From a virus, in the IMG/VR virus record IMGVR_UViG_3300031787_008607, positions 62,001 to 126,000 of that record: 64,000 nt of DNA; one strand, 5' to 3'. The stretch's first letter is position 1, and each line of letters opens with the position of its first letter. The notes beneath the pieces were generated by a model. It made no database searches. It was not told the origin of the DNA and was given only the letters and a program-made list of their open reading frames with translations. The position numbers and the translations under genes are program-made. Of the stretch, positions 450 to 44,693 are shown piece by piece.

Positions 450-866
450 ATGAAAAAAGTAGTAAGATTGTCAGAATCAGAATTAACTAACTTAATTAAA
501 ACAGTAGTTAAAGAAACAAAAAGAAATAAAAAAAATGGAGTTAATGAAGCGGTTGAAAACTTCTTTAATCCTGAGGCTATGAGTACAGGTGGGGCGATTG
601 CTACAATGGTTGGTACAACTATTGCACTTTTAGGTATAGCAGGATGGGATTATCTTAAGGATTTTTATCGTCATTTAAGAAAAACTGAAGGAAAAGAACA
701 AGAGGCGATGGAACTTAAGTCTATCATCCAAGATTATGAAAGTAATAAAATGAATTCAGGTGAAGAAATGGATTCTGAAGTTGAAGTTGATAATATGGAT
801 ATTGAAGATGAAGAACCAATGAAGCCAATGGCTGAAAATATCAGAAGAAAAACAAGAAGATATTAA
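450..866 (+). CDS. Small membrane protein with capsid-tag-like N-terminus
   Basis: A 138-residue protein. Residues 1-22 form an amphipathic helix of the type MKKVVRLSESELTNLIK, containing LSE, an [L/I]-x-E site like those cut by T4-type prohead proteases. Residues about 46-66 (GGAIATMVGTTIALLGIAGW) are a membrane segment, followed by a charged, Glu-rich tail ending in a basic RRKTRRY. The N-terminus is almost the same as that of the genes at 3971 and 7396. I infer a virion internal protein that could enter the host membrane. No homologue is recognised. A terminator follows. Confidence 0.7.
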   Translation: MKKVVRLSESELTNLIKTVVKETKRNKKNGVNEAVENFFNPEAMSTGGAIATMVGTTIALLGIAGWDYLKDFYRHLRKTEGKEQEAMELKSIIQDYESNKMNSGEEMDSEVEVDNMDIEDEEPMKPMAENIRRKTRRY

Positions 867-884
867 TTTAAAAAAAAAATAATG

Positions 885-910
885 AAAAACTCCCGATTGG
901 GAGTTTTTTT
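885..910 (+). terminator. Intrinsic terminator
   Basis: The inverted repeat AAAAACTCCC/GGGAGTTTTT has a four-base loop (GATT) and is followed by a T run. It lies 19 nt after the stop codon of the gene at 450 and before the next small gene. Confidence 0.85.
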
Positions 911-913
911 GTT

Positions 914-921
914 TATATTTG
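914..921 (+). promoter_or_regulatory. Candidate Bacteroidetes -7 box
   Basis: TATATTTG matches the Bacteroidetes housekeeping -7 consensus TAnnTTTG. It lies 25 nt before the start of the 54-residue membrane protein at 947. I see no convincing TTTG -33 element at 19-21 nt spacing, so this is a weak call. Confidence 0.4.
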
Positions 922-946
922 TAGAACAATTAACACCGACACCACT

Positions 947-1111
947 ATGAAAAACTTAAAACTAAAATTGACTTCAGCAATGTTCGCTCTTGTATTATCA
1001 GTTGTATTAATGGTTAGCTCACCATCATTACCTGTATTTGTTTTAAGTGTTGGTCTTATCCTATTACAGACAGCTTTGTGGGGTAAGTTGATGAAAGAGA
1101 TTAAAGAATAA
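947..1111 (+). CDS. Small two-helix membrane protein
   Basis: A 54-residue frame (MKNLKLKLTSAMFALV...) that is almost all hydrophobic between a Lys-rich start and a basic end (KLMKEIKE). Two membrane helices are separated by SSPSLP. It sits between two strong terminators and behind a TATATTTG box, so it looks like its own transcription unit. Size and topology would fit a holin-like or membrane-modifying peptide, but nothing in the sequence proves that. Confidence 0.55.
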   Translation: MKNLKLKLTSAMFALVLSVVLMVSSPSLPVFVLSVGLILLQTALWGKLMKEIKE

Positions 1112-1113
1112 AA

Positions 1114-1137: not shown

Positions 1138-1142
1138 ATGGT

Positions 1143-1967: not shown

Positions 1968-2008
1968 TTTTTGTTTTTTTTTATTTTATTTATTAAAAGG
2001 GCAAAAAA

Positions 2009-2160: not shown

Positions 2161-2164
2161 CAGT

Positions 2165-3952
2165 ATGAGGAATTTATTAACTGAAGTTAGTAAGATGAAA
2201 AACATAATGGGTTTGACAGAAGCTGACAAACCAAAGTATAGCCCTGAGGTTAAATCTCTTGTTGCGGTTTTAAAAGATAACAAAGTATATAGTGCTCAAA
2301 TTCAAAAATTCATTAATAAGATTGAAGAATATTCAAAAGATGGCTTAGTTGATTTTGGATTAGTTACAAGAGGTATTTTAAAAACTTTAAAATTAAAAGG
2401 TAGTAAAGACATTAATATTTTTGAATTTTTCAAACAACTAACTAAATCATTAGAAAAAAGAAAAACTAAAAAAGAAGTTGTTAGTCCTGAAGAAGAGCCA
2501 TCAATATTAGATAAGGACATTTATAAGAAAGAATTATTTTTCCTTCAGGTTGAATTATTAAAACTACAGGAATGGTTAAAACAAACAGGTAAAACTGTTA
2601 TTATTGTTTTTGAAGGAAGAGATTCTGCAGGTAAAGGTTCAACAATTAAAAAGTTTACTGAAAACTTAAATCCAAGATATTATAAAGTTATTGCTCTTGG
2701 TATTCCTACACCCGATGAAAGAAAGAACTGGTGGGATAGATACAGAAATCAAATTGAGAAAGGTAAGATAAACTTCTTTGATAGAAGTTGGTATAATAGA
2801 GGTTTAGTGGAACCTGTTATGGGTTATGGTTCTTCAGATGAATATGAAGACTTTATGGATAATGTTCAGGACTTTGAGGAGTCATTAGTTATTGACGGTG
2901 ATTATCTATTCAAACTTTGGTTCTCAATAGATAAAGAAACTCAGGCTAAAAGATTTGATTTTAGACAAAAGTCACCATTGAAATATTGGAAGTATTCTGA
3001 GAATGATGAAAAAATGCAAGATGTGTGGGAAAAGTTTACAGAGTATAAACAAAAACTTTTTGATAAAACATCCACTGTAAACCATCCTTGGGTTGTTTTG
3101 GATTCTAACGATAAAAAGATTTCAGGTTTAAATTCAATTAGATATGTTTTACAGAATATTCCTTATACAAATAAAGATGAGGATGTTTTAAATAAGGATT
3201 TTCCTGAAGCAATGACTGTGTTAAAACCAAATATTAATGAGCAATCAGTTTTTGATGACATTAATAAAACTATGGGTTTTAACCAATCAAATAAAGAACC
3301 AAATTTTATGGATAAATGGTCTTCTATGGGTCAACCAAAAGACCAAATGAAACCAGATTCGGGAGGTGTTGTTAGTGATATAAATAAAACAATTAAATCC
3401 GGTCTTCAAAAAGCCTCAAGTGAAATATCTAAAAAAAATGAGAAAACCAATCAAAAACCTACAGGTGTTTCAGATAATCTTGTAAATTTTGTTGGTAATA
3501 TTGAGTTTTTTGTTCCTTGTGTTTATGATGATGCTAAAGGTGGTAAATGTATTAGAGGAGAATCTGATTGTTGTTTAAAAGGTAGAGTTCCATCTGGAAC
3601 CCCGACAATTGGTTATGGTACGGTTTATTACCCTGATGGTAGAAAAGTATCACCTAAAGACCCATCAATAACAAAAGATATTGCTAAAACGTATTTAAAA
3701 ACTGCTTTAAATAAATTGGCAGGTAAGTTATTAGCAATATATCCTAATTTAAATCAAAAACAAGTTGATGCATTATCATCATTATGTTATCAAGTTGGAT
3801 TTGCGGGTTGTACAACAAAGGCCCCAAAATTAAGTACTTCTTTAAAAATGAATCCAAATTCTAATTCAGTTAAAATTAACTTTTTAGATTTTAGTCATAG
3901 AGACCGAAGAGAAAAAGAATGGAAAATTTATAGTCAAGGAATTTATTCTTAA
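2165..3952 (+). CDS. Polyphosphate kinase 2 fused to a GH24-type lysozyme, with capsid-tag-like N-terminus
   Basis: A 595-residue fusion. Residues 1-22 are a tag-like helix with two LTE sites and the IMGL motif shared with the gene at 15663. About 115-335 is a PPK2 domain: Walker A GRDSAGKGS at 151-159, the IPTPDERKNWWDRYRNQI lid region, Walker B-like NFFDRSWYNR near 203-212, and a KYWKYSEND segment. PPK2 enzymes move phosphate between polyphosphate and nucleoside mono- or diphosphates. A Lys/Asn-rich linker leads to about 435-595, a lysozyme-like domain (NIEFFVPCVYDD, TPTIGYGT, then VDALSSLCYQVG) that would cut peptidoglycan. Two tandem late boxes precede it. The combination suggests an injected virion protein. 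Confidence 0.88.
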   Translation: MRNLLTEVSKMKNIMGLTEADKPKYSPEVKSLVAVLKDNKVYSAQIQKFINKIEEYSKDGLVDFGLVTRGILKTLKLKGSKDINIFEFFKQLTKSLEKRKTKKEVVSPEEEPSILDKDIYKKELFFLQVELLKLQEWLKQTGKTVIIVFEGRDSAGKGSTIKKFTENLNPRYYKVIALGIPTPDERKNWWDRYRNQIEKGKINFFDRSWYNRGLVEPVMGYGSSDEYEDFMDNVQDFEESLVIDGDYLFKLWFSIDKETQAKRFDFRQKSPLKYWKYSENDEKMQDVWEKFTEYKQKLFDKTSTVNHPWVVLDSNDKKISGLNSIRYVLQNIPYTNKDEDVLNKDFPEAMTVLKPNINEQSVFDDINKTMGFNQSNKEPNFMDKWSSMGQPKDQMKPDSGGVVSDINKTIKSGLQKASSEISKKNEKTNQKPTGVSDNLVNFVGNIEFFVPCVYDDAKGGKCIRGESDCCLKGRVPSGTPTIGYGTVYYPDGRKVSPKDPSITKDIAKTYLKTALNKLAGKLLAIYPNLNQKQVDALSSLCYQVGFAGCTTKAPKLSTSLKMNPNSNSVKINFLDFSHRDRREKEWKIYSQGIYS

Positions 3953-3970: not shown

Positions 3971-4288
3971 ATGAAAAAGTTTATTATTACAGAAAGTCAA
4001 TTAGAATTTATAGTTAAAAGATACCTTAACGAAGATGCAAGATACGTAATGTCTTTTGACGAGTTTATGAAACATAAAAACAAAGACCAACAATATAAGT
4101 GTGGTTTTGAAAACTTATGTTTTGTTATTCATGATGGAAATCACCAAATAGATTTGGATGATAAATTCCATGAAAAACACAAAATTCCTAATGGAGTTGG
4201 TGGAACAATTTACCACGATGGTAACAATGTTTATTTCTGTCCTGACTTTGGTGATGACAGACCGCAAAGAACTATTCAGGTTTATTAA
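3971..4288 (+). CDS. Hypothetical protein with capsid-tag-like N-terminus
   Basis: A 105-residue protein starting MKKFIITESQLEFIVKRYLN, followed by E. The sites ITE and LNE fit the [L/I]-x-E rule, and cutting after residue 21 would leave an 84-residue mature domain that is acidic and His/Asp-rich. No family is recognised. Its last four bases overlap the stop of the convergent gene, sharing the TTAA palindrome. The box at 3958-3965 fixes this start. Confidence 0.7.
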   Translation: MKKFIITESQLEFIVKRYLNEDARYVMSFDEFMKHKNKDQQYKCGFENLCFVIHDGNHQIDLDDKFHEKHKIPNGVGGTIYHDGNNVYFCPDFGDDRPQRTIQVY

Positions 4289-7395: not shown

Positions 7396-8733
7396 ATGAA
7401 AAAAATAGTTAGGTTAACTGAAAATGATTTAGTTGCAATTATACAGAAAGTTATTAGCGAACAAACTCCTGATAGAAAAAGATTTATATCTCAGTCATCA
7501 AGTAAATTAACTCAAGGTGAAGGTGGTTATTCAGAAAAGTATGAGTTATTTAAATCTAAAGGTGAAAATACTGAAGATAATGAAAAGTTTATGGATTTAT
7601 ACCGTGAAGCTCAATCATTAGTTTACCAAGAAAATCAAAATGGGTACGTAAAAAATATTCTTACGGGTCAAGACCAAATCGACCTATGGGGAAAAATAAA
7701 AACTGACGACATGTATTTCGCTGCGGATATTATTAAAAAAGTAAAAAATTCTGAAGGTCGAGATAGATATAAATACTGTAGATTAGGAACAAGACAATCA
7801 TTTTCTGAACTTGAGAAATTACCAAAACAGAAACTACCAAATAAGTCTGAGACACCACCAGAACTTGATACGGTTATAATTCCATCCGAAGTTGTACAAC
7901 AAGATTTTTTTGATAATAATAGTTGGAGATTAAAACCGGCAGGCGAAAATGAATTTTATCAAACTTTTGTTGAACCATACAAGACTGCGTTAGACAATCT
8001 TAGACAAACTTACCCTAATGCGGGAATATGTATACAAAGTATTTCTTTAGAATCAAGTGCTAGCCGATTTAGAAATCAAGGTGAGGCCAAAGATTTAAGT
8101 TTTGAAAAATTATCAGAAGCAAGAGCAGCAACTGTTGAAAACTTTTTAATGAAAAATTATGAAAATTTAAAAGGTGGGTGGTGTACAGGTAAACGTAATA
8201 CGACTATAAATGCTAAAGGTCAAAATGGTGATGGTACATCTGGCCCAAATCCACCTAAGGGATATAGTTTTTTACCTAAAGGTGTTGATTACAATTTTAA
8301 TAATTTTGTCACACCCAATACACCACAAGCAACAACTTTAGAAAAGAAAAGAAATGAATTTGGGACTCCTGAACCCGCGGATAAAGGTGGTGCTAAAGCA
8401 TATGAAAAATACAGATATGTTAGACCAACAGTAAAAATACAAATATTTTACGATGTTGACGCTCCAGGTGATAGAGATGTAACTTTACCAGATAGTACTC
8501 CTCCTGAAAAAATAACAAACCCAAGTCAAAAATATTGGGCAATGCTATACAAATGGAAATTTAGTTTAACTGGCGGAGGTTCAGGTAGACGTAAAAAAAG
8601 AAGAGGTAATAAACACGGTTCAATAAAAACTCAATCATGTGACGACGCAGTTTCAATGTGTGTTAGAAAAACACAAAGTGACGCAAAACGTCACTTTGAA
8701 AAAAAGAAAAAAGACCAAATAAGTTACCATTAA
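7396..8733 (+). CDS. OmpA-like domain protein with capsid-tag-like N-terminus
   Basis: A 445-residue protein. Residues 1-22 are the clearest copy of the tag (MKKIVRLTENDLVAIIQKVI then SE), with LTE and ISE sites. The middle, about 170-360, contains AGICIQSISLESSASRF...LSFEKLSEARAATVENFL, which follows the OmpA/MotB peptidoglycan-binding pattern. The C-terminus is strongly basic (GGGSGRRKKRRGNKHG) and carries two Cys. A box CTATTTAT lies at 7373-7380. I infer a virion protein that may bind cell wall. The OmpA call is moderate. Confidence 0.7.
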   Translation: MKKIVRLTENDLVAIIQKVISEQTPDRKRFISQSSSKLTQGEGGYSEKYELFKSKGENTEDNEKFMDLYREAQSLVYQENQNGYVKNILTGQDQIDLWGKIKTDDMYFAADIIKKVKNSEGRDRYKYCRLGTRQSFSELEKLPKQKLPNKSETPPELDTVIIPSEVVQQDFFDNNSWRLKPAGENEFYQTFVEPYKTALDNLRQTYPNAGICIQSISLESSASRFRNQGEAKDLSFEKLSEARAATVENFLMKNYENLKGGWCTGKRNTTINAKGQNGDGTSGPNPPKGYSFLPKGVDYNFNNFVTPNTPQATTLEKKRNEFGTPEPADKGGAKAYEKYRYVRPTVKIQIFYDVDAPGDRDVTLPDSTPPEKITNPSQKYWAMLYKWKFSLTGGGSGRRKKRRGNKHGSIKTQSCDDAVSMCVRKTQSDAKRHFEKKKKDQISYH

Positions 8734-9391: not shown

Positions 9392-9595
9392 ATGACGAAA
9401 ATGAAACGAATTCTAAAGGAAAATGTTGCCACTTATTGCCTTATGCTCGCAATGTTTTTCAATCCAATAGGGTTCGACATAATGTTCAAAGCAATTTTGG
9501 ATTACACAAATTCTTATTGGATTACCACAGGAATTTTTTACTGTATTTCAGCATTGTTCTTTGGGTTGTATTTCTTATTACGAAGTAAAAAATGA
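9392..9595 (+). CDS. Small two-helix membrane protein
   Basis: A 67-residue protein with two hydrophobic segments (NVATYCLMLAMFFNPIGF and WITTGIFYCISALFFGLYFLL) and a basic end. An overlapping frame of the same length at 9385-9588 is less hydrophobic and less plausible. An in-frame ATG at 9401 (MKRILKE) is an alternative start. ATATTTATAAATAA at 9336-9349 lies upstream. The stop overlaps the next start by 4 bp (ATGA). Confidence 0.6.
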   Translation: MTKMKRILKENVATYCLMLAMFFNPIGFDIMFKAILDYTNSYWITTGIFYCISALFFGLYFLLRSKK

Positions 9596-10191
9596 ATATC
9601 AAAAAACTTATCAAAAAAGTTCTTACAGAATCGGTGGAAAAACCACTTATCTCAGAACACCTTAATTATCATATAACAAATGAAGTTCCATTAAATGATA
9701 ATATCTTTAGATTTGGTTCTGAGGAATTCTTTAATGTTATTCAAGAAGCTCGTGAGTTATATTACGAGGGAATGGTTGAATTAAGTGAAGATGATGTTGA
9801 ACTTGTTGAATCTGATTTTGGAACACAGGTTAAATTATCAAGTGGTAGAGTTGTTTACTTGGATACTCCGATGGAAGAATCATTTATTTCTGAAGCTGAA
9901 TATAACGGAAAGAAAGTTGAACTTGGTAAACCAAGAAGAAATACTGGTGGTGGTAAGAAATATGTTGTTTATGTTAAAAACCCATCAACAGGTAGAGTTA
10001 AGAAAATTTCATTTGGTGATGTTCATGGTGGATTAACAGCTAAGGTATCCAATCCTAAAGCACGTAAATCATTTGCTGCAAGACATCAGTGTGCTAAGAA
10101 AAAAGATAGATTAACGGCTGGTTATTGGGCATGTCGTTTAAACCGTTTTGGTTATTTGTGGGGTGGTAAAACTTATCCAGGATTTTGGTAA
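9592..10191 (+). CDS. Virion-type protein with ARHxC module and capsid-tag-like N-terminus
   Basis: A 199-residue protein. The first 15 residues (MNIKKLIKKVLTES) hold an LTE site. The last 95 form a module I recall from many phage structural regions: KKYVVYVKNPSTGRVKKISFGD, then NPKARKSFAARHQC...TAGYWACRLNRFG, where His and two Cys could bind zinc. The end is WGGKTYPGFW. I infer a capsid- or core-associated protein. It is coupled to the genes before and after. Confidence 0.7.
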   Translation: MNIKKLIKKVLTESVEKPLISEHLNYHITNEVPLNDNIFRFGSEEFFNVIQEARELYYEGMVELSEDDVELVESDFGTQVKLSSGRVVYLDTPMEESFISEAEYNGKKVELGKPRRNTGGGKKYVVYVKNPSTGRVKKISFGDVHGGLTAKVSNPKARKSFAARHQCAKKKDRLTAGYWACRLNRFGYLWGGKTYPGFW

Positions 10192-10192
10192 T

Positions 10193-10459
10193 ATGAAACC
10201 GTATAAAGATAGAAAATTAACAGAAACTTCAAAGATTAGAGTTTTTAAATCCAATGTTGATAGTGGTGAACTACAATGGCATCGTGATAGAGAAGATAGA
10301 TTGATTGAAGTGGTTCAGGGTGAAGGGTGGAAATTCCAAATGGATAATCAATTACCAATAGAATTAACTGAAGGACAAGTATTATTAATCCCTGAAGGAA
10401 CTTATCATAGAATTTTTAAAGGAAAAACTGATTTAGAATTAAAGATTGATTTTATTTAG
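10193..10459 (+). CDS. Cupin-domain protein
   Basis: About 88 residues starting MKPYKDRKLTETSKIRVFKS, chosen because this ATG follows the previous stop directly. A single small cupin barrel is visible: LQWHRDREDRLIEVVQGEGW (first motif, His and Glu metal ligands) and GQVLLIPEGTYHRIFKG (second motif, His). The substrate is unknown. The 3' end overlaps the convergent gene by 8 bp, and a TAG stop is followed at once by TGA. Confidence 0.75.
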   Translation: MKPYKDRKLTETSKIRVFKSNVDSGELQWHRDREDRLIEVVQGEGWKFQMDNQLPIELTEGQVLLIPEGTYHRIFKGKTDLELKIDFI

Positions 10460-11072
10460 TGATTCTATCGATAATCAATTCCATAAGTCGTTTTAAGAAA
10501 TTACCTGAAATTGTTATTAATCCAAATGCTGATAATGATTTAACTAACATTTCAGTATCTTTCATATCCCAAATACCCTCAGAAACAGCATCATATATCA
10601 TTGGTATAATCGGAACCAAGAATGCGTAACTTAACATATTTGTTACAGTAAATGCTGATAAATTCAAACTCTTTAAAAAACCTGCTAAAACAGTTTTAAG
10701 TTGATTGGCTTTGATTGCACCCAATTTAAATGGTTCTTCAAGTCCATCTTCTTTAATCTTTTTAATAATTGATTTGGTAAAACTTCTTTCTTGAAAGAAT
10801 ATTACTGAAGCAATACCTGCGGCAATTAATGATAAATCTTTTTCAGTTAATTCAGGTACCTGTCCATTTAACCATTGCATAATTGGCCCCATGAACCCTC
10901 CGATTGCCGCTCCCCATGTGAGCATCATCTTTAAGTTTATCGAAGCGTGAGATTTGGTGTCTTCAATAATCTTTTTTGTTAGTTCAACACCATCCTCTTG
11001 AACTTCTTTAATCCTGTCATTTATTGCTTCAAGGATAATTTGTTTTTGAGATTCTTTAATTAGATATTTCAT
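10452..11072 (-). CDS. Polytopic membrane protein with capsid-tag-like N-terminus
   Basis: A 206-residue protein starting MKYLIKESQKQIILEAINDR, with IKE and ILE sites. Four hydrophobic segments follow (MLTWGAAIGGFMGPIMQWL; LSLIAAGIASVIFF; VTNMLSYAFLVPIIPMIY; LSAFGLITISGNFL), with amphipathic connecting helices. A protein with a head tag plus membrane helices could form an injection channel, but this is inference. It diverges from the gene at 11088 across only 15 bp. Confidence 0.68.
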   Translation of the reverse strand: MKYLIKESQKQIILEAINDRIKEVQEDGVELTKKIIEDTKSHASINLKMMLTWGAAIGGFMGPIMQWLNGQVPELTEKDLSLIAAGIASVIFFQERSFTKSIIKKIKEDGLEEPFKLGAIKANQLKTVLAGFLKSLNLSAFTVTNMLSYAFLVPIIPMIYDAVSEGIWDMKDTEMLVKSLSAFGLITISGNFLKRLMELIIDRITK

Positions 11073-12493: not shown

Positions 12494-12955
12494 ATGAGAA
12501 ACGCATTTTTTTTAAATATTACTGAAGAAGAAAAACAATCAATACAAGATAGACATAGAAGTCAGTATGATGGATATGTTAGTCGTGGGTTTAACACACC
12601 AAAAGAACAAATCCTTAACGTGGAAAATTTGGCGTTAGATGAAAAAGGAATTACTGTATCTAATATGGGTGAAGTTAAAGAATATACAAACAAAGAAGTT
12701 AACCGAAAACTTAAAAAAGTTTGTGATGAGTGTAATGGTTTATATGAAGGTGAAATGTGTGAACAGTGTTCATCTATGAAAGAGGGAGAACAATGTGAGC
12801 AATGTGGAACTGAAATGAAAGAGGGTGAAACATGTGAGTGTGGAAAAGGATATACTATGGAAGAACTTGAGGAAAGTATTAAATTAAAATCAAAGGCTCC
12901 ATTAGTACAAGAAAATATCAGCGAATCATTAAATTGGTTTAAGAGAATTTTGTAA
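12494..12955 (+). CDS. Zinc-ribbon-like protein with ITEEEK-type N-terminus
   Basis: A 153-residue protein. The start MRNAFFLNITEEEKQSIQDR has an ITE site and belongs to a second tag type (ITEEEK..I...H...Y). Residues about 75-120 carry six CxxC or CxC pairs (CDECNG, CEQCSS, CEQCGT, CECGK), which predicts several zinc sites. The C-terminus is SLNWFKRIL. I infer a virion-associated zinc protein. ATATTTAT lies at 12469-12476, 17 nt before the ATG. Confidence 0.65.
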   Translation: MRNAFFLNITEEEKQSIQDRHRSQYDGYVSRGFNTPKEQILNVENLALDEKGITVSNMGEVKEYTNKEVNRKLKKVCDECNGLYEGEMCEQCSSMKEGEQCEQCGTEMKEGETCECGKGYTMEELEESIKLKSKAPLVQENISESLNWFKRIL

Positions 12956-21502: not shown

Positions 21503-22372
21503 ATGAATAAAAAACAATTACACGAGCAATCATTAAAAGAACTACGTAAGTTAGAATATATCTTTGAAGAAGAATCAATTGCTCGTCCTGTGGCATCAAG
21601 TGTTAAAAATTATTTGGAGGGATTAGGTTATGAAACAAAATCAACCATGGCTGAGGTCGGAGACTTAACCCCTCAATTTGGTGATGTTTTGAAAAAAGCC
21701 GCCGCCGCCTTAAAACAAGAGTTACCTCATCTAAAAATTAGATTTGGTTCAGGTAGAGATAAATTCCACCAAAGTTACCCAAATAGTCGACATAATAAAG
21801 GTAATGCTAATGACGTTGTATTTAAAGGGGTTGATAAAAATGATGATGAAGAATTAGATAGAATATCAACTGTGTTATGTGCTGTAAGAAAAAAATATCC
21901 TGGGTTTACTTTTATTGATGAATATAGACATCCAAGTAAACATTCAACAGGTGTTCACTATCATTTTTCTTGGTCTGAAAGTGGAAAAGATGAAGGTCAC
22001 GGCACTTCTGAATTTTGTTCATCAGTTAAAGATTTAGATTTAGACCATATTGATTTTGATAAAATTGAGTCAAAAATACCATTACAAGAACCAAGTAAAC
22101 TTGATAAATTTTTAGATTATGTTGGATTAGGTGACTTATCAGATGCAAAGGTAGGTGATAAAGAAAGTCAAAAAGGATTGGTGGATAAAGCAAAAGAACT
22201 TTTTTCTGATGATGATGTGAAAGACGATGATAATGGGTTTGAAATATTCGGATATAAATTAGATGATATTTTAGATAAAGTTAAAAGTATTATACCACAA
22301 TTTGAATCTGAACAAAAGAAAAAGAATATTTTAGAAGATGTTAAAAGAATTAAATCAAAAATGATAAAATAA
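21503..22372 (+). CDS. M15-type peptidase (endolysin-like) with tag-like N-terminus
   Basis: A 289-residue protein. The start MNKKQLHEQSLKELRKLEYI has LHE and LKE sites. About 30-165 is an M15-like D,D- or L,D-peptidase: SRHNKGNANDVVF (first His and Asp zinc ligands, near 94-103) and STGVHYHFSW (HxH, near 150). Such enzymes cut peptidoglycan cross-links. The C-terminal third is acidic and helical, ending VKRIKSKMIK. The tag suggests a virion enzyme rather than, or as well as, a free endolysin. Confidence 0.8.
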   Translation: MNKKQLHEQSLKELRKLEYIFEEESIARPVASSVKNYLEGLGYETKSTMAEVGDLTPQFGDVLKKAAAALKQELPHLKIRFGSGRDKFHQSYPNSRHNKGNANDVVFKGVDKNDDEELDRISTVLCAVRKKYPGFTFIDEYRHPSKHSTGVHYHFSWSESGKDEGHGTSEFCSSVKDLDLDHIDFDKIESKIPLQEPSKLDKFLDYVGLGDLSDAKVGDKESQKGLVDKAKELFSDDDVKDDDNGFEIFGYKLDDILDKVKSIIPQFESEQKKKNILEDVKRIKSKMIK

Positions 22373-30760: not shown

Positions 30761-32056
30761 ATGAAAAAAGAAAAATTAGTAAAAAGATTGGTTAGTCGAC
30801 TTAATGAGGCACCTATCGGATATGAAGGCCCTGAAAGAATGGCACCTGATATTCAATCTAAATTTGAGAAAGGTGAAACACCTCATTCAGGTAGTAAAGC
30901 ATTTCCTGAAATAACACCTGAAAGTCCGGATAAACCATCTAACTTTGAACAACTTATTGCGTCTCAAAGATTTAAAGAGGTTATTAACAGATTAAAAAGA
31001 TATACAGGTATTGAAGATGTGACTTCGCAGAATTCAATGATGAGACTTCAAATGATGGTGATGAACGCTATGCAAGAAATCGCTCAGATTGAATCTGAAA
31101 ACAAAGAATACTTGGAAGAATTAGCAATTGAGGTTGTTCAAAAGGAATTTGGTATTCCTGAAGGAGCATTACAGTATGATGTTCAGTTGGTTAAACCAAA
31201 TGACATTGATTCAAGTAAGTTATCTGCTAAAGGTGAAGAACCAAGTGAAGAAGAAATTGAAAACATGTTTGGTTCTGAAGAAGAACAAGAACAACTTGAG
31301 GATTTCATGGATTCATTTGAAAAATTTGATTTAGAAAAGGCTAAAAGAAGGTTTATAAACTCCCTTATTCAAGGAGCGGCTAAACAATCTTCTTATATGT
31401 TTGAATTATTAAATAGAGAGTTAAATGCTATTAACCCAAGATTATTGAATATGTATGGTGTCTTTATGTCATTTGCTGATTCACTTTATTGGTTAATGCC
31501 TGACTCAATGGTTCAAGGTATGGCAGGTGGTGGAGAATCGACATATGGTATGTCTGAGTTAGACGCTAAGACTGACCCACCGACAGTAAAGGCTCGTGGT
31601 GTTAATTTACCAATCCTTATTCATGAACTTGCTAAAGGTGTTATGGAAATTGCAGGAACATACGGATTACCGAAAGATAAGACAAGACAAGAAGCGGTTA
31701 TTAAATCACAAGATACTGTTGTTGGTGAAATTTGGGATATGAGATTAGGGCCGGTTATTTGGCAAAAGTTTCGTGAAGCTTATCCTGATGAATTGTTTGA
31801 TGATGATAAGAGAAACTTACAACAATATTTCCTTGTTAAGTTTGCCGAACTTACCCCAAACGAATTCTTTGCAATGGCTCGTGAAATTTTATCAGGTTCA
31901 CCAAAAGGAAAGAAAATGGTAAAAGATATGGTTGATGAAATCATTGCTGAACTTAAAGAAGAAGAATATGAAGATACTATGAAGAAATATGAGGATGATG
32001 ACGACGATGATGATGAGGATTTTGATGATTTCTTAAAAGGATTAGGCATCAACTAA
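30761..32056 (+). CDS. Head-module virion-type protein with LNE tag
   Basis: 431 residues from MKKEKLVKRLVSRLNEAPIG. A GTG three codons earlier (30752) is possible but overlaps the previous stop. The LNE site at 14-16 would release a mature chain beginning APIGYEGPE. The body is helical, Met-rich and acidic, ending in an Asp/Glu run (EDDDDDDEDFDDFL). It sits just before the terminase. The role is unknown; a head completion or core protein is plausible. Confidence 0.68.
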   Translation: MKKEKLVKRLVSRLNEAPIGYEGPERMAPDIQSKFEKGETPHSGSKAFPEITPESPDKPSNFEQLIASQRFKEVINRLKRYTGIEDVTSQNSMMRLQMMVMNAMQEIAQIESENKEYLEELAIEVVQKEFGIPEGALQYDVQLVKPNDIDSSKLSAKGEEPSEEEIENMFGSEEEQEQLEDFMDSFEKFDLEKAKRRFINSLIQGAAKQSSYMFELLNRELNAINPRLLNMYGVFMSFADSLYWLMPDSMVQGMAGGGESTYGMSELDAKTDPPTVKARGVNLPILIHELAKGVMEIAGTYGLPKDKTRQEAVIKSQDTVVGEIWDMRLGPVIWQKFREAYPDELFDDDKRNLQQYFLVKFAELTPNEFFAMAREILSGSPKGKKMVKDMVDEIIAELKEEEYEDTMKKYEDDDDDDDEDFDDFLKGLGIN

Positions 32057-37349: not shown

Positions 37350-38069
37350 ATGCAAAATTATAAAATATTAGGCCCAAGAGAGACAGGAAGAGGTATTTTA
37401 ATTGAGATGGATGCGGGATATGTTTCCCCAACAGAAAAACATAATCAAACATTCTTACAAGAAAGTAGGGACTTTAAAGATTATTCAAAACCATTTGAGT
37501 TTTATGCCGTTCTACAAAAATATAACACACCAAATAGAAATGGTAGAATATATCCTGAAAGAATTTTAAAGAGAGAATCTGAAAATTATATAAAAAATTA
37601 TATAGGTAAAAAAACTGCCTTATCTGAACTTAACCATCCTGAATCTTCGTTAATAGATTTGGATAGAGTATCACACATGATTACAGAGATGTGGTGGGAT
37701 GGTAATGTTCTATTAGGTAAGTTATTACTTCTAACCTCACCAGGGTTCCATGAAAGAGGTATTGTGTCAACAAAGGGTGACCAAGCAGCAAACCTATTAA
37801 GATTAGGTGTAACGTTAGGTATATCATCAAGAGGGGTAGGTTCTTTAAAAAAAGTAGGTGACCAAAATGAAGTACAAGATGATTTTGAATTAATTTGTTT
37901 TGACTTAGTATCTTCACCGTCAACACCAGGAGCTTATTTATTTACTGAACCTGATGGAAGATTTGCGTTTGAAGAGAACCTACAAGAAGAAAACGAAATG
38001 AAAGCTGCAAGAACAGTTAACAAATCGCTTGATTTAATGGGAAGACTTTCCGATTATTTAAAAAAATAA
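37350..38069 (+). CDS. Prohead maturation protease (T4 gp21-like, S80 type)
   Basis: A 239-residue protein with segments typical of phage prohead proteases: NTPNRNGRIYPERIL near 57, ALSELNHPESSLIDLDRVSHMI (catalytic His in NHP, about residue 95) and LGVTLGISSRGVGSL (catalytic Ser, about 160-165), then FDLVSSPSTPGAYL. It should cut scaffold, capsid protein and tagged internal proteins after [L/I]-x-E during head maturation. ATATTTAT lies at 37326-37333. The specificity is taken from T4, not shown here. Confidence 0.92.
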   Translation: MQNYKILGPRETGRGILIEMDAGYVSPTEKHNQTFLQESRDFKDYSKPFEFYAVLQKYNTPNRNGRIYPERILKRESENYIKNYIGKKTALSELNHPESSLIDLDRVSHMITEMWWDGNVLLGKLLLLTSPGFHERGIVSTKGDQAANLLRLGVTLGISSRGVGSLKKVGDQNEVQDDFELICFDLVSSPSTPGAYLFTEPDGRFAFEENLQEENEMKAARTVNKSLDLMGRLSDYLKK

Positions 38070-38406: not shown

Positions 38407-39825
38407 ATGGCAGAAAAAAACTTAGTTGAAGAAGCGTTAATCCAAATACAAAATTTGGAAGAAGCTATCAATGAAAACGCAAAAGAAATACTTCATTCTA
38501 CAATGAAAGAAGAAATTAGCGAATTAGTAAAAGAGTCTATGAAAAATGAGGCTGAAGAAGATGAATTTGAAGTTGAAGACGAATTAGAATTTGAAGATTC
38601 TGAGGAAGAAGAAAACGAATTTGAATCTGAAGATGAAGAATCTGAAGAGGAAGAAGACGAATTTGGAACTGAAGAAGACGAAGATTCTGAAGAGGAATTT
38701 GACATGACAGATTTATCTGATATGGGTGGTGAAGATGAATTTAATTCTATGGAAGTTACTGATTTAACTGACAGTTCTATGGAAGATGTCCTTAAAGCTT
38801 TTAAACAAATGAGTGCAGATGACAGTTTTGAAATTAAAAAAGAAGGTGATTTTATTCATTTAAAAGATGAAGAAGATGAATACCTTATTCAAACTGAATC
38901 TGAACAAGAAGAGTATGAAGGTTGGGAATCTGAAGAAGAGGAAGAAGAATTAGATGAAATCGTTTACGAAATTGAAATGAATGAAGAGGAAGAGGAAGAA
39001 GAGTTGGATGAAATGTGGGGTAGCAAAAAAGGTGAGTACTCAAGAGAACACGGACACGAAGACGGCGATGGTTTAGATTATGAAGAAGATGAATACGAAC
39101 TTGAAGAAGAAGTATTTACTGAATCTACTAAAGCTGTAGTTGGTAAAGGTGTTAAATTGGGTAACGCTAAAACTGCTGGTGTTGTTAAAAAGACACAAGG
39201 TGGTTTTAACGAAAAGAAAGCTCACGCAAATCCTACAAAAGGTACAGGTAAACCTAAATTTGAGTTCAAAGAAGAAGCTTCAATGGACACGGATAGACCT
39301 AAAAAATTCGGAACAAAAGAAGAAGCTAAAGAAGCTGCTCGTACTTACGGATTTGGTTCTAAAAAAGGACGTGGTTTAAGAAAGGGTATTACACCTAACA
39401 GAAACTTAACGTTTGAAAGCCGTGAAATTATGGAAGAAGTTGAAATGTTAAGAGCTAAAAATGAAGAATACAGAAAGGCTCTAAATATGTTTAGAGACAA
39501 ACTTAACGAAGTTGCAGTGTTTAATTCAAATTTAGCATACGCTACAAGATTGTTCACAGAACACTCTACGTCAAAGCAAGAAAAGATTAACATTTTAAGA
39601 AGATTTGATACCGCAGACACTCTTAAAGAATCTAAAGCTCTTTATAAGACAATAAAAGACGAGTTAGGTGGTGCTACCACTAAAGCTCCGATGACAGAAT
39701 CAATCGAAAGAGTGATGGATAAAGTTCCACAATCAGGTTCAGCTGTGAATTTGATTGAATCAAAAACTTACGAAAATCCTCAATTCTTGAGAATGAAAGA
39801 CATTATGTCAAAAATAATAAAATAA
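38407..39825 (+). CDS. Prohead scaffold/core protein (gp22-like)
   Basis: A 472-residue protein with an extremely acidic N-terminal half (runs such as EDSEEEENEFESEDEESEEEEDE and EEEEEELDE) and a basic, helical C-terminal half (MEEVEMLRAKNEEYRKALNMFRDKLNEVAVFNSNLAYATRLF). It is directly before the major capsid gene and has many [L/I]-x-E sites. Scaffold proteins fill the prohead and are cut to peptides by the protease. ATATTTAT (38380-38387) ends 19 nt before the ATG. Confidence 0.85.
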   Translation: MAEKNLVEEALIQIQNLEEAINENAKEILHSTMKEEISELVKESMKNEAEEDEFEVEDELEFEDSEEEENEFESEDEESEEEEDEFGTEEDEDSEEEFDMTDLSDMGGEDEFNSMEVTDLTDSSMEDVLKAFKQMSADDSFEIKKEGDFIHLKDEEDEYLIQTESEQEEYEGWESEEEEEELDEIVYEIEMNEEEEEEELDEMWGSKKGEYSREHGHEDGDGLDYEEDEYELEEEVFTESTKAVVGKGVKLGNAKTAGVVKKTQGGFNEKKAHANPTKGTGKPKFEFKEEASMDTDRPKKFGTKEEAKEAARTYGFGSKKGRGLRKGITPNRNLTFESREIMEEVEMLRAKNEEYRKALNMFRDKLNEVAVFNSNLAYATRLFTEHSTSKQEKINILRRFDTADTLKESKALYKTIKDELGGATTKAPMTESIERVMDKVPQSGSAVNLIESKTYENPQFLRMKDIMSKIIK

Positions 39826-39856: not shown

Positions 39857-41707
39857 ATGGGAGCATTATTAGAAAGTGGATTAGTAGGTAACATCGGTCT
39901 TAAGCACTTGAAAGTTATCAAAGAAGACACTATAAACAAATGGGACAAATTAGGGTTCCTTGAAGGTCTTAGAGGCCACCTAAAAGAAAACGTTGCTCAG
40001 TTGTATGAAAACCAAGCATCATTCTTAATTAACGAAGCGGCTTCAACTGCTGATTCAGGTTCATTCGAAACTGTGGTATTCCCTATCATCAGACGTGTGT
40101 TCTCTAAATTATTAGCTAACGAAATCGTATCTGTACAAGCTATGAACTTACCAATCGGTAAATTGTTCTACTTTGTACCTCAAATTCAAGGTTATTCTGC
40201 AGCAACTCCAACACAAGGAGCTTCAGGAGAAGCTGGACACAGAGCACCTGTAGGTTCTCCTGGAAACTATCCTGGTGACCCAAATGCTGGTTACACTGAT
40301 TCAACTGCGTATCCAAAGAACCTTTATGATTTATTCTATGAAGGAAATGAACCAGGTTTAAACCCATCAGGTCTTTTTGATTATTCAAAAGGTGGTTGGT
40401 ATTGGGTTACTGGTGCAACTAACCAAGTAGTTTGGTCAAACGGTTCATTAGTAGTATCTGGATATGGTTCAGGTGAATACAGAAAATTACTTTTAGTAAT
40501 GTCTGGTTTCACATCAGTAGGTGACGGTAAGTTAATTGGCCCTGATGGACAAGAAATGGATACTGAAACATTCCTTTCTGATTTAACTTTATTACCAACT
40601 TCTGCATTAGCTGCAAGAATTAACGCATCTGGTGGTAATGTTACTACTTCTACACCACTTTTATTCCGTGTTGTTACACAAAAATACGGTAAAGGTATTG
40701 TTGAATATGGTACTAGCAAAACTACAACATGGCCAGGTGGAGCAACTCCAGGAAATGGAGGTTCGTTCTATGATGTATGTAGTGCTGATGGTGTTATCTA
40801 CTTAGAAGTTGATTTACAAACACCAGCATGTATCTCTTGTGGAGCATCTACTCCTGATGGTTACACTGGAACTACTTTCACAACTACTTTAACGGGTGTT
40901 ACAACTAACACAGCAGTTACTGCATATTGGAAGCGTTACCAAGAGTTAGAATTTGAAGACAAAATTGGTGAAGTTTCTTTCGACCTTCAATCAGTAACAG
41001 TTTCTGTGACTGAAAGAAAGTTAAGAGCACAATGGTCTCCAGAACTTGCTCAAGACGTTGCAGCGTTCCACAACATCGATGCTGAAGCTGAATTAACAGC
41101 TTTATTATCTGAGCAAGTGGCAGCTGAAATTGACCGTGAAATCTTACGTGACTTACGTAAAGGTGCGGCTTGGACATTACGTTGGGATTACAACGGATGG
41201 AAGCGTCTGAACAACCAATCAACTCCTTACACTCAAAAGGACTGGAATCAAACGTTGATTACTGCAATCAACCAAATTTCAGCTCAAATCCATAAGTCTA
41301 CTTTAAGAGGTGGAGCTAACTGGATTGTTGTATCTTCTGAAATCAGTGCTATCTTTGATGACTTGGAATACTTCCACGTATCAAACGCGGCTCCTGAGCA
41401 AGACCAATACAACATGGGTATTGAAAGAGTTGGTACTTTGAGTGGTCGTTACCAAGTATACCGTGACCCATACTTCCCACCAAACACTGTGTTGATTGGT
41501 CACAAAGGTACTTCGTTATTGGATACTGGATATATCTACGCTCCATACGTACCATTACAATTAACTCCAACAATGTATAACCCATTCAACTTTACTCCTA
41601 TCAAGGGTATTATGACACGTTACGCTAAGAAGATGGTTAACAACCGTTTCTATGGACGTATCATCGTTGATGGTGTTCGTACATTCGATTTGAATGAATT
41701 AAGATAA
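39857..41707 (+). CDS. Major capsid protein (T4 gp23-like)
   Basis: A 616-residue HK97-fold capsid subunit of T4 type. The signature is SFETVVFPIIRRVFSKLLANEIVSVQAMNLPIGKLFYFVPQIQG (about 69-112). INE at 58-60 followed by AASTADSG corresponds to the place where T4 gp23 is cut (after Glu65), so the mature protein should begin at Ala61. An insertion relative to T4 (521 residues), about 125-335, is Gly/Thr/Tyr-rich and probably surface exposed. Codons are visibly biased to AAC, TTC and CGT, unlike the neighbours, as expected for very high expression. Confidence 0.96.
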   Translation: MGALLESGLVGNIGLKHLKVIKEDTINKWDKLGFLEGLRGHLKENVAQLYENQASFLINEAASTADSGSFETVVFPIIRRVFSKLLANEIVSVQAMNLPIGKLFYFVPQIQGYSAATPTQGASGEAGHRAPVGSPGNYPGDPNAGYTDSTAYPKNLYDLFYEGNEPGLNPSGLFDYSKGGWYWVTGATNQVVWSNGSLVVSGYGSGEYRKLLLVMSGFTSVGDGKLIGPDGQEMDTETFLSDLTLLPTSALAARINASGGNVTTSTPLLFRVVTQKYGKGIVEYGTSKTTTWPGGATPGNGGSFYDVCSADGVIYLEVDLQTPACISCGASTPDGYTGTTFTTTLTGVTTNTAVTAYWKRYQELEFEDKIGEVSFDLQSVTVSVTERKLRAQWSPELAQDVAAFHNIDAEAELTALLSEQVAAEIDREILRDLRKGAAWTLRWDYNGWKRLNNQSTPYTQKDWNQTLITAINQISAQIHKSTLRGGANWIVVSSEISAIFDDLEYFHVSNAAPEQDQYNMGIERVGTLSGRYQVYRDPYFPPNTVLIGHKGTSLLDTGYIYAPYVPLQLTPTMYNPFNFTPIKGIMTRYAKKMVNNRFYGRIIVDGVRTFDLNELR

Positions 41708-42051: not shown

Positions 42052-43002
42052 ATGAAAAGTAACGTTATATTAGAAATATTAAAAAAGTTCAAGGAGTATG
42101 ACGATTATGTAAATGAGTCAACCTCAACAGGTGATGCGGGTAGTTATAGAGCCCCATTAAGACCTGGTTTAAAATTATGGGATAAAAATATTTTGAAACC
42201 TTTTACAGAACCGTTAAATGGTTATGATAATGCGGAAGTATATGTTGATTCACTTGATGGTAATATTGATACAAAGGGTGTTAAAAGAAAAGAAAAAATT
42301 TCGGTTGCAATTTCAAAGTCAGACAAAAAACATCCTGTTCAAAATGATGAAGATGGTAGTGACTTAAATGATAACCCTGTTAATGCGGAATTAATTAAAA
42401 AAGTTTTTGGTAAAAAGAAAATAAAAGAAGGTACTCATAGTTCTACAAGTGCTGGTGAGTATAGCGGGCCAATTGAGTTAGGTTTAAAAAAATGGAGAAA
42501 ACAAGAACTTGACCCATTTAGTGATGACAGTAATCATCATACAACAAGTAAAGCTAAGAAAAAAAATATTAAAAATAATATTAAAAAAACTGTTGGTGTT
42601 TGGGAAAAACATCCTGAAAGTGGATATGAAATACCGTCTCACGATGTTCATACAATTAATGAAGATTTGGGTGTTTGGTTTGGGACTAAGAAAAAACCTA
42701 AAGGTAGTAAACAACCTAAAGGGCCTTGGGTGAATATATGTAAAAAGGTTGATGGTAAACATCCACCATGTGGGAGACCTGATGCATCATCTAAATCTTA
42801 CCCAAAATGTAGAGCCGCAGGGGTTGCAGGTAAAATGTCAGATTCTCAAAAAAAAGCCGCTTGTCAACAAAAAAGAAGAGCTGAGAAGAAAGATACTCAA
42901 ACAGGTAAAGGTCAAAAACCTGTTATGACTTCATATAAACCTAAAAAGAAAAAGACCAACGAATCGGTCTTAATATCTTTAATTAGAAAGGCTTTAGATT
43001 AA
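42052..43002 (+). CDS. Tagged basic protein with internal duplication and Cys module
   Basis: A 316-residue protein. The start MKSNVILEILKKFKEYDDYV has ILE and VNE sites. Two diverged copies of a 30-residue unit follow: residues about 22-57 (STSTGDAGSYRAPLRPGLKL and WDK..LKPF) and about 129-160 (SSTSAGEYSGPIELGLKKW and ...LDPF). The last 90 residues contain KGPWVNICKKVDGKHPPCGRPD and YPKCRAAGVAGKMSDSQKKAACQQKRRAEKK, a basic Cys module I recall from other phage virion-associated proteins. Likely a DNA-binding internal protein. Confidence 0.68.
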   Translation: MKSNVILEILKKFKEYDDYVNESTSTGDAGSYRAPLRPGLKLWDKNILKPFTEPLNGYDNAEVYVDSLDGNIDTKGVKRKEKISVAISKSDKKHPVQNDEDGSDLNDNPVNAELIKKVFGKKKIKEGTHSSTSAGEYSGPIELGLKKWRKQELDPFSDDSNHHTTSKAKKKNIKNNIKKTVGVWEKHPESGYEIPSHDVHTINEDLGVWFGTKKKPKGSKQPKGPWVNICKKVDGKHPPCGRPDASSKSYPKCRAAGVAGKMSDSQKKAACQQKRRAEKKDTQTGKGQKPVMTSYKPKKKKTNESVLISLIRKALD

Positions 43003-43244
43003 TAAATACTTTTACTAACTCTAATACCGGGTCTAAGAGGTTCGTAAGTTCTTTCAGGTCTTGAGTATTGTCCTGTACCATATTCTGAATTAAGGTTTTC
43101 TAACGCTTTCCTATAATCACCTGAATCATCAGATAATAACCTATCAATAACATCTTGGATTAAACTTCTATCTAATCTTCCGTATTCAGGTTCTTGTGAC
43201 ATTTCTTTTATTGCTTTTTTAATTTGACTATTTAACTTTGACAT
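42999..43244 (-). CDS. Hypothetical protein
   Basis: An 81-residue protein, helical, with a basic start (MSKLNSQIKKAIKEMSQEP) and the end YEPLRPGIRVSKSIY. The LRPGIRV piece is like the LRPGLKLW unit of the neighbouring convergent gene, with which it shares a TTAA stop overlap of 4 bp. This may mean a common partner. No family is known. Confidence 0.58.
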   Translation of the reverse strand: MSKLNSQIKKAIKEMSQEPEYGRLDRSLIQDVIDRLLSDDSGDYRKALENLNSEYGTGQYSRPERTYEPLRPGIRVSKSIY

Positions 43245-43254
43245 TATAATAATA

Positions 43255-43659
43255 TTAGTGATTTATTTTACTATAAATATTATCAAGAGAATGATTAATT
43301 TGAGTTTCTAATTCTTTTTCAATCTCCATGGCTCTATGTTCCATTTCTTTACGGAATGTATTAACCAATTTATCCCATTGACTTTTACTTAATTTAATAA
43401 AATAACTGTATGTATGATTTGTTACAGTTATTTGACCACCGTCCATAGTAACAAAAATACCTAATTTATCATTACGGATATATTTTTTGTCAGATATTGG
43501 AGCGATTATGAGTTCAGAATCCTCCGAATGAATGAGTTTTCTACATATGGTGGAACATTTCCTCACGTTAGACATATAAATGTCAAATTCGGTACTTTCT
43601 CGGTCTAATCGACGTAGATATAGACGATATTTAACCCATAGTTTTTTTATTATAGTCAT
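43255..43659 (-). CDS. Hypothetical protein
   Basis: A 134-residue basic protein (MTIIKKLWVKYRLYLRRLDRE...) with a beta-rich centre (LIIAPISDKKYIRNDKLGIFVTMDGGQITVTNHTYSYFI) and a long C-terminal helix. No recognised domain. It is the last but one gene of the minus-strand virion block. Confidence 0.6.
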   Translation of the reverse strand: MTIIKKLWVKYRLYLRRLDRESTEFDIYMSNVRKCSTICRKLIHSEDSELIIAPISDKKYIRNDKLGIFVTMDGGQITVTNHTYSYFIKLSKSQWDKLVNTFRKEMEHRAMEIEKELETQINHSLDNIYSKINH

Positions 43660-43717
43660 GTCATTTATGATTTGACTACAAATATACTATGTTTTTTTAA
43701 TAATTCAAAATGTTTTG

Positions 43718-44173
43718 TTAACAATAAGCCCCTGAACAGTGTTTTTTTCCGTCTAAACCAGGTTTTGTACCTTTACATACCTGTACCGCATAACCATTAG
43801 CATATGCTGAAGGGTAAACATCAAATTTAGCTTTAGCTGCCGATTTACCACGTGCACAAAGTTTAGTACCTGCTTTTTTACGACCTTCCATCATGATATC
43901 TTCTTGAGGTTTAACTGCATCATCAGAACTAAACTTATCACCTTTGATTTCATTCATCATAAAATCAAATACTTGGTCTAAGTTATTTTTAGATTCGGCA
44001 ATGTGGTCTTGAGCCCAATCGTGACCATTGTTTAAAATATTTTCAACGTCATCTTTAGGTATAGATAAAAGTATCTCACATTGACGGTGCATTTGTTCTA
44101 AATTACTGAAAAACATATATCTTTCATTTTGTTCTTTTAATACTTGTTTAATTAAATTGTCTAAGTTTTTCAT
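43718..44173 (-). CDS. Tagged protein with DUF5872-like basic module
   Basis: A 151-residue protein. The start MKNLDNLIKQVLKEQNERY has an LKE site and another (MME) later. The C-terminal 50 residues, KKAGTKLCARGKSAAKAKFDVYPSAYANGYAVQVCKG, follow the DUF5872-type pattern found in phage and giant-virus proteins, with added Cys residues (CARG, CKG, HCSGAYC) that could bind zinc. I infer a small internal, DNA-binding virion protein. It is 1 nt from the next gene upstream. Confidence 0.68.
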   Translation of the reverse strand: MKNLDNLIKQVLKEQNERYMFFSNLEQMHRQCEILLSIPKDDVENILNNGHDWAQDHIAESKNNLDQVFDFMMNEIKGDKFSSDDAVKPQEDIMMEGRKKAGTKLCARGKSAAKAKFDVYPSAYANGYAVQVCKGTKPGLDGKKHCSGAYC

Positions 44174-44174
44174 A

Positions 44175-44693
44175 TTAAGCTATCATATCATCTTCTTTTA
44201 GGTCATTACAGACTACATCTAAAAACACTTCAATATCATGTTCTAAACCTTCATAATCTTCAAATACATTTGTTCCTTCAGTTGTGTTTTCAAACATACA
44301 AGTTTGAAAATTACCTTCGGGGTCACAATAAATTTCACCATAATAGTCACTATCATCAACAGTTAGATACCCTGTATGTATTTTTTCATCCTCATTATCT
44401 TCAGTTGACTCATATCTAAATTTAAACGATGGCATTCCTGGAAATTCAAAAGACCAAAAACCACCTGCCTTTGTTATAGCATCTTCTTTAGATGACGGTT
44501 CGTCTTCAATTGAAATACCTTTAGTAAATTTCTCAAGAGTTTTTCTTTCTTCAGGTGTAATTGATTCCATACCTGATTGACTAATTTTATCTAAAATTGC
44601 GTCAATTTTATCTTCACCAGGAGTAAAGGCTTCGGATAAAACAAATTTTAATAATTTAATATATTCGTTTTCTTTTAATTTTATTTTTTTCAT
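44175..44693 (-). CDS. Tagged hypothetical protein
   Basis: A 172-residue protein. The start MKKIKLKENEYIKLLKFVLS followed by E holds LKE and LSE sites and is nearly the same design as 450 and 7396. The body is acidic and beta-rich (WSFEFPGMPSFKFRYEST). No family is recognised. It overlaps the structural gene at 44690 by 4 bp, so it belongs to the late tail transcript. Confidence 0.68.
   Translation of the reverse strand: MKKIKLKENEYIKLLKFVLSEAFTPGEDKIDAILDKISQSGMESITPEERKTLEKFTKGISIEDEPSSKEDAITKAGGFWSFEFPGMPSFKFRYESTEDNEDEKIHTGYLTVDDSDYYGEIYCDPEGNFQTCMFENTTEGTNVFEDYEGLEHDIEVFLDVVCNDLKEDDMIA

Follow-up and report, generated by a model that had tools for sequence, protein, structure and literature searches.

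Short N-terminal tags ending in [LIV]-x-E on unrelated proteins of a T4-like phage clade: a probable expanded system of gp21-processed head cargo

The stretch of DNA analysed here, hereafter the window, comprises 64,000 bases of a viral genome (bases 62001-126000 of the 132,705-base IMG/VR record IMGVR_UViG_3300031787_008607). Many otherwise unrelated proteins encoded in the window and in related loci, which belong to large uncultured T4-like phages, begin with one of a few short tags that end in [LIV]-x-E. These N-termini are probably T4-type capsid-targeting propeptides, and would belong to an expanded system of head cargo processed by a protease of the gp21 family. The sharing of the tags, the conservation of the site, the protease together with a site in the capsid protein, and a shared upstream element are observed in the sequences. 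Packaging and cleavage of the tagged proteins are likely, with a timing that we infer, and their injection into the host is plausible.

At least 600 relatives were found in IMG/VR and 80 loci were retained. Profile models of four related tag types (A, B, C and D) were grown on 2933 non-overlapping open reading frames (ORFs) from 162 sources, namely the window, three other parts of its record, 79 capsid-selected loci and 79 tag-selected loci; the last raise the overall tagged share, and some records in the sample resemble near-duplicates. The consensus sequences are MKKxIRLTESDLxxIVKRVIxEQ for type A, RIxxMMGL or RIMEIARYNE for type B, ITEEEKxRILxxHx..LxEQ for type C and the short LIKKVLxE for type D. 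At E<0.01 the models matched 323 ORFs for A, 23 for B, 309 for C and 169 for D, the matches of C and of D overlapping those of A; the corresponding figures were 2, 0, 0 and 0 for reversed N-termini and 2, 0, 0 and 1 for residues 71-140 of 1685 proteins. The union of the four models covers 438 ORFs in 216 groups. Cluster 9, whose body we read as helix-turn-helix-like, has 34 members with 11 type A matches, which were taken as false; it was excluded from the body-group and cut-site counts and is still included in the model-match counts. Without this cluster and without late-starting matches there are 417 tagged ORFs in 213 body groups, made up of 198 blastp clusters (122 singletons) and 15 short proteins counted singly; as the groups are blastp clusters, some may be distantly akin. 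A common N-terminal peptide on unrelated proteins, as in a T4-type capsid targeting sequence (CTS), is therefore found on a scale larger than the original prediction had claimed. All the starts it had listed are present, the one at 30761 being an ATG inside an ORF that runs from GTG 30752. Among the 931 ORFs of the capsid-selected loci, 67 carry a tag of some type; type A, once cluster 9 is removed, accounts for 32. At a looser cut (E<0.05) the record of the window has 27 tagged genes out of 200 (those of at least 60 aa). Residues 5-25 include the motif [LI]xE in 208/211 body groups with a tag and in 203/566 without one, a comparison that is partly circular because the tagged set was chosen by motif models.

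The end of the tag was located from 152 type A tags, one per body group, of which 145 were anchored on the first glutamate and 7 were dropped. In the anchored tags, P3 is [LIVM] in 89%, P1 (the residue before the candidate cut, marked ↓) is Glu in 86% and P1' is Gln in 46%. Beyond P1' no residue exceeds 16%; the conservation of type A therefore stops at the predicted cut, and the conserved stretch finishes around residue 22 with [LIVM]-x-E↓Q. No less conserved is the first LTE (Thr at 90%, Glu at 100% through the anchoring), which may be a second cut site or a helix cap. The original prediction had put the type A cut at this RLTE (residues 7-9). As the sole cut site it was dropped, since conservation ends after the Glu near 22; the second LxE (residue 19-22) is the better candidate because conservation ends after it and because short tags end at the matching glutamate, although LTE↓S still fits the motif. 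The second site is far less clear-cut in type C than in type A. The tag thus ends in a cut motif like that of the capsid protein, and cleavage there is predicted from this likeness.

For the genes of the window, conservation of the site was expressed as the fraction of relatives that align a Glu with the predicted P1; the aligner may favour matching glutamates, and these columns are supportive, not proof. Four of the genes (9592, 10452, 30761 and 42052) were added to the tagged set on orthologue evidence. The tagged genes are:

450..866, plus strand: type A tag MKKVVRLSESELTNLIKTVVKE↓T on a 138-aa protein; P1 Glu in 6/6 relatives
2165..3952, plus strand: type B tag ..KNIMGLTE↓A, PPK2 plus lysozyme; P1 Glu 2/3 (1 gap), those two near-identical
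3971..4288, plus strand: type A tag ..IVKRYLNE↓D; P1 Glu 4/4
7396..8733, plus strand: type A tag ..IIQKVISE↓Q on a 445-aa protein; P1 Glu 2/2
9592..10191, plus strand: short type D tag MNIKKLIKKVLTE↓S; P1 Glu 10/11 (1 gap)
10452..11072, minus strand: short tag MKYLIKESQKQIILE↓A; P1 Glu 7/7
12494..12955, plus strand: type C-like start, weak member; P1 Glu 1/5
13596..15617, plus strand: type B-like start MENKKKELLERVLLLMKYNNEMTLTENTEIVSE↓Q, in an ORF that runs from GTG 13542; profile match
15663..17141, plus strand: type B start ..RIQEIMGI..; profile match
21503..22372, plus strand: possible tagged protein; TATTTAT 25 bases upstream
28222..29478, plus strand: type B start ..IQRIMEIARYNE..SINE↓T, added in this analysis; exact site in 4/11
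30761..32056, plus strand: head-module protein ..RLNE↓APIGYEGPERM; P1 Glu 21/23
42052..43002, plus strand: candidate cargo precursor with N-terminal site YVNE↓STSTGDAGSY; P1 Glu 51/51
43718..44173, minus strand: short type D tag MKNLDNLIKQVLKE↓Q; P1 Glu 34/35 (1 gap)
44175..44693, minus strand: type A tag ..LLKFVLSE↓A; P1 Glu 15/15

Most of the [L/I]-x-E starts of the original prediction keep the P1 Glu in their relatives: those at 450, 3971, 7396, 9592, 30761 and 42052, and the minus-strand starts at 11072, 44173 and 44693. Two others, 12494 and 35901 (Glu in 22/39 relatives), failed this test as members. For 13596, 15663 and 21503 no homologue was found within the sampled ORF set.

Orthologues can exchange tags and yet retain the glutamate. 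In the 43718 family the tag on the same body is either of type A (long) or of type D (short), and of the 35 members the 21 that were aligned all have the P1 Glu. Some relatives of 44175 replace type A by MKYLITESQYEILIE↓N, with Glu present in 15/15. In the 30761 family E↓A is retained although the upstream residues vary, and the relative of the 7396 body in locus L133 begins with a C-like tag.

The protease and the capsid protein are encoded in the head module of the window:

32122: terminase
34029: portal
37350..38069, plus strand: gp21-type prohead protease (PHROG 207, E=3.1e-44; 33% identity to T4 gp21)
38407..39825, plus strand: acidic, putative prohead-core (scaffold-like) protein, by position and composition alone
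39857..41707, plus strand: major capsid protein (PHROG 138, E=3.6e-66) with LINE↓A as candidate maturation site after residue 60

The alignment of the 37350 protein with T4 gp21 shows His and Ser regions in common, and the gp21-like protease predicted at this place is supported by sequence. The 38407 protein gave no match in the PHROG comparison. The INE at residues 58-60 of the capsid protein, to which the original prediction had also pointed, holds as a candidate site: LINE[AS] is present in 82/82 rows, L001 and the window being one record among the capsid rows. In the T4 gp23 sequence record the equivalent stretch near the N-terminus reads FLTE↓A, the mark standing where we take the cut to be. 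The named relatives of the capsid protein are those of an uncultured 484-kb phage, a Microcystis phage and Flavobacterium phage immuto, with 41-46% identity over about half of the protein.

The 42052 family adjoins the capsid gene, and its N-terminal site resembles the capsid site. In the window the pair reads INE↓AASTADSGSF in the capsid protein and VNE↓STSTGDAGSY in 42052. To compare the two across the sample, the capsid cut segment of each of 45 loci was matched within the first 200 residues of the 42052-family protein of the same locus. The best match was the N-terminal site (residues 7-46) in 27/45 loci, and shuffled capsid segments reached the observed best place 45 times out of 900.

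Sites of the same kind recur inside some precursors. In 42052 a second copy, KIKE↓GTHSSTSAGEY, is followed by a third, TINE↓DLGVWFGTKKKP, ahead of a basic Cys module. This third module was found in 34/51 members of the family, with Glu before DL[AG]VWFG in 34/34 and a hydrophobic P3 in 32/34; in L019, L050, L056 and L060 the same site is followed by this module close to the beginning of an ORF of its own. The 2165 protein has a PPK2 domain at residues 115-338 (Pfam E=1.7e-70) and a lysozyme domain at 476-549 (Phage_lysozyme E=7e-10), and between the two lies KPNINE↓QSV (Glu 359). In its relative L162_10409 the tag is combined with the NINE↓QSV site and the lysozyme half, and no PPK2 stretch is detectable by sequence. 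In 9592 an internal FISE↓AEY stands ahead of a C-terminal module (PHROG 7595), and in this protein and some of its relatives [IL]xE↓AEY precedes that module. Hence 42052 and 2165 (PPK2 plus lysozyme) are candidate cargo polyproteins. The internal Glu may, however, belong to the module itself and not to a cut site.

Many tagged genes share the upstream element TATTTAT. It occurs at most 45 bases before the ATG in 151/212 tagged and 230/1078 untagged representatives; because it was found by k-mer comparison and then tested on the same genes, its p-value is post hoc. Some of the untagged representatives that bear it look like missed tags. The class situated 18-42 bases before the start includes 120/212 tagged representatives, 51/54 members of the protease family and 54/65 of the scaffold family, as well as 27/39, 25/27 and 31/51 members of the 35901, 44690 and 42052 families respectively. 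For the portal and terminase the figures are 13/34 and 4/24. None was seen in glycan-type clusters (0/43) or in the ClpB family (0/14), and the background is 324 in 20,000 random 31-base windows. The protease and scaffold families thus have the element in common with many, not all, tagged families. In the record of the window, whose tally overlaps in data with the family tallies, TATTTAT stands at 47/200 genes at two distances, about 11-14 and 18-35 bases before the ATG (for instance 2140-2146 and 2154-2160), and at 0/19 genes of the 51-64-kb glycan region; the near class could correspond to leaderless transcripts. The T4-style motif TATAAATA, which we take to be the T4 late element, was tried upstream of tagged genes and rejected (49/414 versus 191/2411, odds ratio 1.56). 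Its reverse complement is TATTTATA. Further repeated starts outside the models, RFxNLMESTIGDVxPLxSEQ and SKIRHIQESNxxLExRLLxE (L109_7939, L122_9281, L141_7496, L167_8482 and similar), have TATTTAT upstream and are probably additional tag types.

Pfam was scanned with the 110 longest of the 213 tagged representatives, a scan not aimed at typical polyvalent domains. It returned 22 families: PG_binding_1 was found in 5/110 bodies, and PPK2, VanY, Peptidase_M23, Phage_lysozyme, Phage_lysozyme2, YkuD, Glyco_hydro_19 and sigma-70 models in one member each. For the member with the sigma-70 match the tag is a presumed one. Defence-related families gave two weak matches in the 110 bodies. As a control, 110 of 330 untagged groups (150-700 aa) gave 94 Pfam families; among the 25 of these that were listed, most are metabolic, DNA or glycan enzymes, and none of the families named for tagged bodies appears. 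Body charge showed no clear difference, with a median of 0.000 for tagged (n=210) versus -0.024 for untagged proteins (n=543). Domains for type IX secretion sorting (Por_Secre_tail) occur in two of the 110 untagged phage proteins and would point to a Bacteroidota host.

The protease was searched for in 30 of the 79 tag-selected loci, those on longer contigs. The gp21-type family was found in 23/30, that is in 16/16 of the loci of at least 100 kb and in 7/14 shorter ones. The seven loci without it gave no portal or capsid match either and therefore look like fragments; the empty result alone is not proof of absence. The capsid query matched 21/25 records, and all 21 also have the protease, so that tags and a gp21-family protease occur together in these genomes as in the window. 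Nine named phages gave no tag A or C at E≤0.001; the protease family model has a match in six of them and none in phiKZ, G or crAss001. The original prediction had named the same starts on phages lacking a gp21-type protease as evidence against itself. There are none among the records searched, a weak point in its favour as tags A and C were found in one clade only. Searches of the named phages by tblastn with whole tagged proteins or with 24- and 33-aa tags gave weak unrelated matches or none, and are uninformative with such short queries. P-SSM4 has a few analogous starts. The T4-like capsid relatives immuto and LR756508 have a T4-type protease too, lack tags A and C at E≤0.001, and by eye show repeated starts of their own close to head genes, which contain LxE or have it at their end. 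In the cultured phage immuto (L087/L088, for instance 103806, 117631 and 118632) the shared start is FDLKKFLVENKLTxNSxxLKE, and MKKSQLRxIIKEAL-type starts lie near head genes. In LR756508.1 (L195, 20715-26594) the capsid gene adjoins an array of YRG(T/S) paralogues that begin, for example, with MKFKELLKE↓Q or MRLKNVLLKE↓Q; by eye the array resembles ADP-ribosyltransferases, and it is possibly an Alt-like tagged cargo.

The closest known system is that of T4. The sequence records of T4 IPII and IPIII both begin MKTYQEFIAE↓A, marked at the place where we take the cut to fall. According to the parts of the sources available, T4 propeptides of 10-19 residues direct internal proteins into the core (PMC9026906; PMC3012670). 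The first 10 residues of IPIII are enough for targeting, which depends chiefly on residues 4 and 7, and processing depends on residue 8, at P3, and residue 10, at P1 (PMC9026906). The internal proteins have diverse bodies with only the CTS in common (PMC3012670), and Alt is an injected, cleaved ADP-ribosyltransferase (PMC9026906; PMC5512222). The proteins described here resemble T4 IPI-IPIII and Alt in having a short start ending in [LI]xE, a gp21-family protease and diverse bodies, with an injected enzyme on the T4 side. Unlike those of T4, the tags are mostly longer and of several types, they stand on 213 body groups in the sampled clade loci instead of a handful, and there are apparent internal cut sites between modules.

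Other phages offer partial parallels, again as far as the accessible portions of the papers go. In SPN3US the prohead protease removes propeptides after Glu at 14 A-x-E sites in 9 proteins (PMC10052503; PMC13282480; PMC9026906), the phiKZ protease is a diverged gp21 homologue (PMC9026906), and both phages have large sets of internal head proteins (PMC10052503; PMC13282480). Many internal head proteins and N-terminal propeptides cut after Glu would be common ground. Unlike the A-x-E of SPN3US, P3 here is mostly L, I or V; most SPN3US propeptides measure 111-254 residues, and the available text on phiKZ and SPN3US describes no common tag. The N-terminal 30 residues of P1 DarB carry a reporter into the capsid (PMC9024508); this too is an N-terminal signal, unrelated in sequence since the Dar N-termini are reported without a consensus. 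Polyvalent proteins are multidomain and predicted to be injected with DNA, and some have peptidoglycan-attacking domains, including one lysozyme fusion (PMC5512222). Their release is ascribed to embedded peptidase domains, whereas here cutting at [LIV]xE would fall to a separate head protease. Such tags are not described in the consulted parts of a jumbo-phage survey (PMC7824862) and of the Far-T4 paper (PMC4360716), and in the open literature searched we found no paper on the tag sequences and recognised none as describing this system. The earlier statement that enzymes as cargo would be new was too strong, because T4 Alt and polyvalent proteins precede; what stands is that PPK2 as injected phage cargo was not found in the open literature searched.

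We propose that the cargo precursors would be made together with the prohead genes, and that the tag, as an amphipathic helix, would dock each precursor in the prohead core. The gp21-type protease would then cleave the precursors after [LIV]-x-E, the same kind of site as in the capsid protein, leaving mature bodies that would stay with the DNA and probably exit with it at infection. The clade would have turned the tag into a general sorting code across many unrelated bodies, and some cargo genes would encode several modules divided by further cut sites. A bolder form of this proposal, to which we give about an even chance, is an open head 'address code' in a jumbo T4-like lineage. Interchangeable, clade-specific tags would load almost any late protein, the head protease would split polyproteins (PPK2-lysozyme and the three-module 42052), and the factors delivered before any phage expression would be metabolic, envelope-acting and perhaps transcriptional.

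The tags could also be prohead-core binding and cleavage elements of proteins that serve assembly only, the trimmed bodies remaining or being lost with nothing useful injected. This agrees with the head-cargo reading on packaging and cleavage, and would suit both the position of the best-conserved tagged families next to the protease and capsid genes and the degradation of the T4 scaffold gp22 by gp21 (sequence-record annotation). However, PPK2, the sigma-70 match, VanY, M23, lysozyme and YkuD bodies would make odd scaffolds, and many of the record's tagged genes are located away from the head module of the window; we regard this explanation as rather unlikely. It is less likely still that the tag directs late proteins elsewhere, to the tail or cell envelope, with the glutamate as a helix end. 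The peptidoglycan-related families among the bodies (PG_binding_1, VanY, M23, the two lysozymes, YkuD and GH19) speak for such a destination, but injected proteins with peptidoglycan-attacking domains are known (available text of PMC5512222), conservation ends at E↓Q, and the site resembles the capsid site and recurs at module borders inside precursors. Finally, a mobile coding segment spread by recombination to gene starts, with no function in the protein, would account for the same start on unrelated bodies and for clustered arrays. We consider it very improbable, for conservation ends at the Glu, unlike tag types finish in the same motif, and orthologues hold the Glu even where the rest of the start differs.

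Several observations weigh against propeptides processed in the head. About 14% of type A tags have no P1 Glu, and LTESDL could be a helix cap. The MKYLITESQ proteins have the first site only, with no LxE after residue 7, and the family also has untagged paralogues; L084 (1770-6270) and related loci contain an array of these paralogues of about 100 aa with the body VIFKYLDNQDFIQI, the untagged ones being in L120. The structure model of the 43718 protein, of low confidence (predicted local distance difference test score, pLDDT, 69), has a single helix at residues 2-37 that spans the predicted cut. The site is not conserved among orthologues of 12494, 35901 and 28222, and in 18/45 loci the capsid segment did not match the N-terminal site of the 42052 family (8 at an internal Glu, 10 elsewhere). 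The capsid-bearing records are 75-100% identical in the capsid protein and form one clade with some near-duplicates, so that co-occurrence with the protease could be due to ancestry alone. As to TATTTAT, it is also present on 21% of untagged representatives and, in the record of the window, on 33/173 untagged and 14/27 tagged genes. It was seen neither at the capsid gene (0/83) nor in the 30761 family (0/21), and few members of the 43718 (4/34) and 44175 (2/15) families have it; upstream promoters may serve instead.

If the head-cargo reading is correct, the cargo of uncultured phages could be read from sequence, each tagged gene being a predicted virion protein. Many families of unknown proteins would gain a function class, and a testable list of the proteins of the first minute of infection would be at hand. 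T4-type head cargo, now a handful of proteins, would become a large set of exchangeable ones with a polyphosphate kinase among them, the head protease would act as a splitter of multidomain cargo, and the tags could be used for loading proteins into phage heads.

The window also has a long minus-strand run of sugar-nucleotide and glycosyltransferase-like genes (51031-63831).

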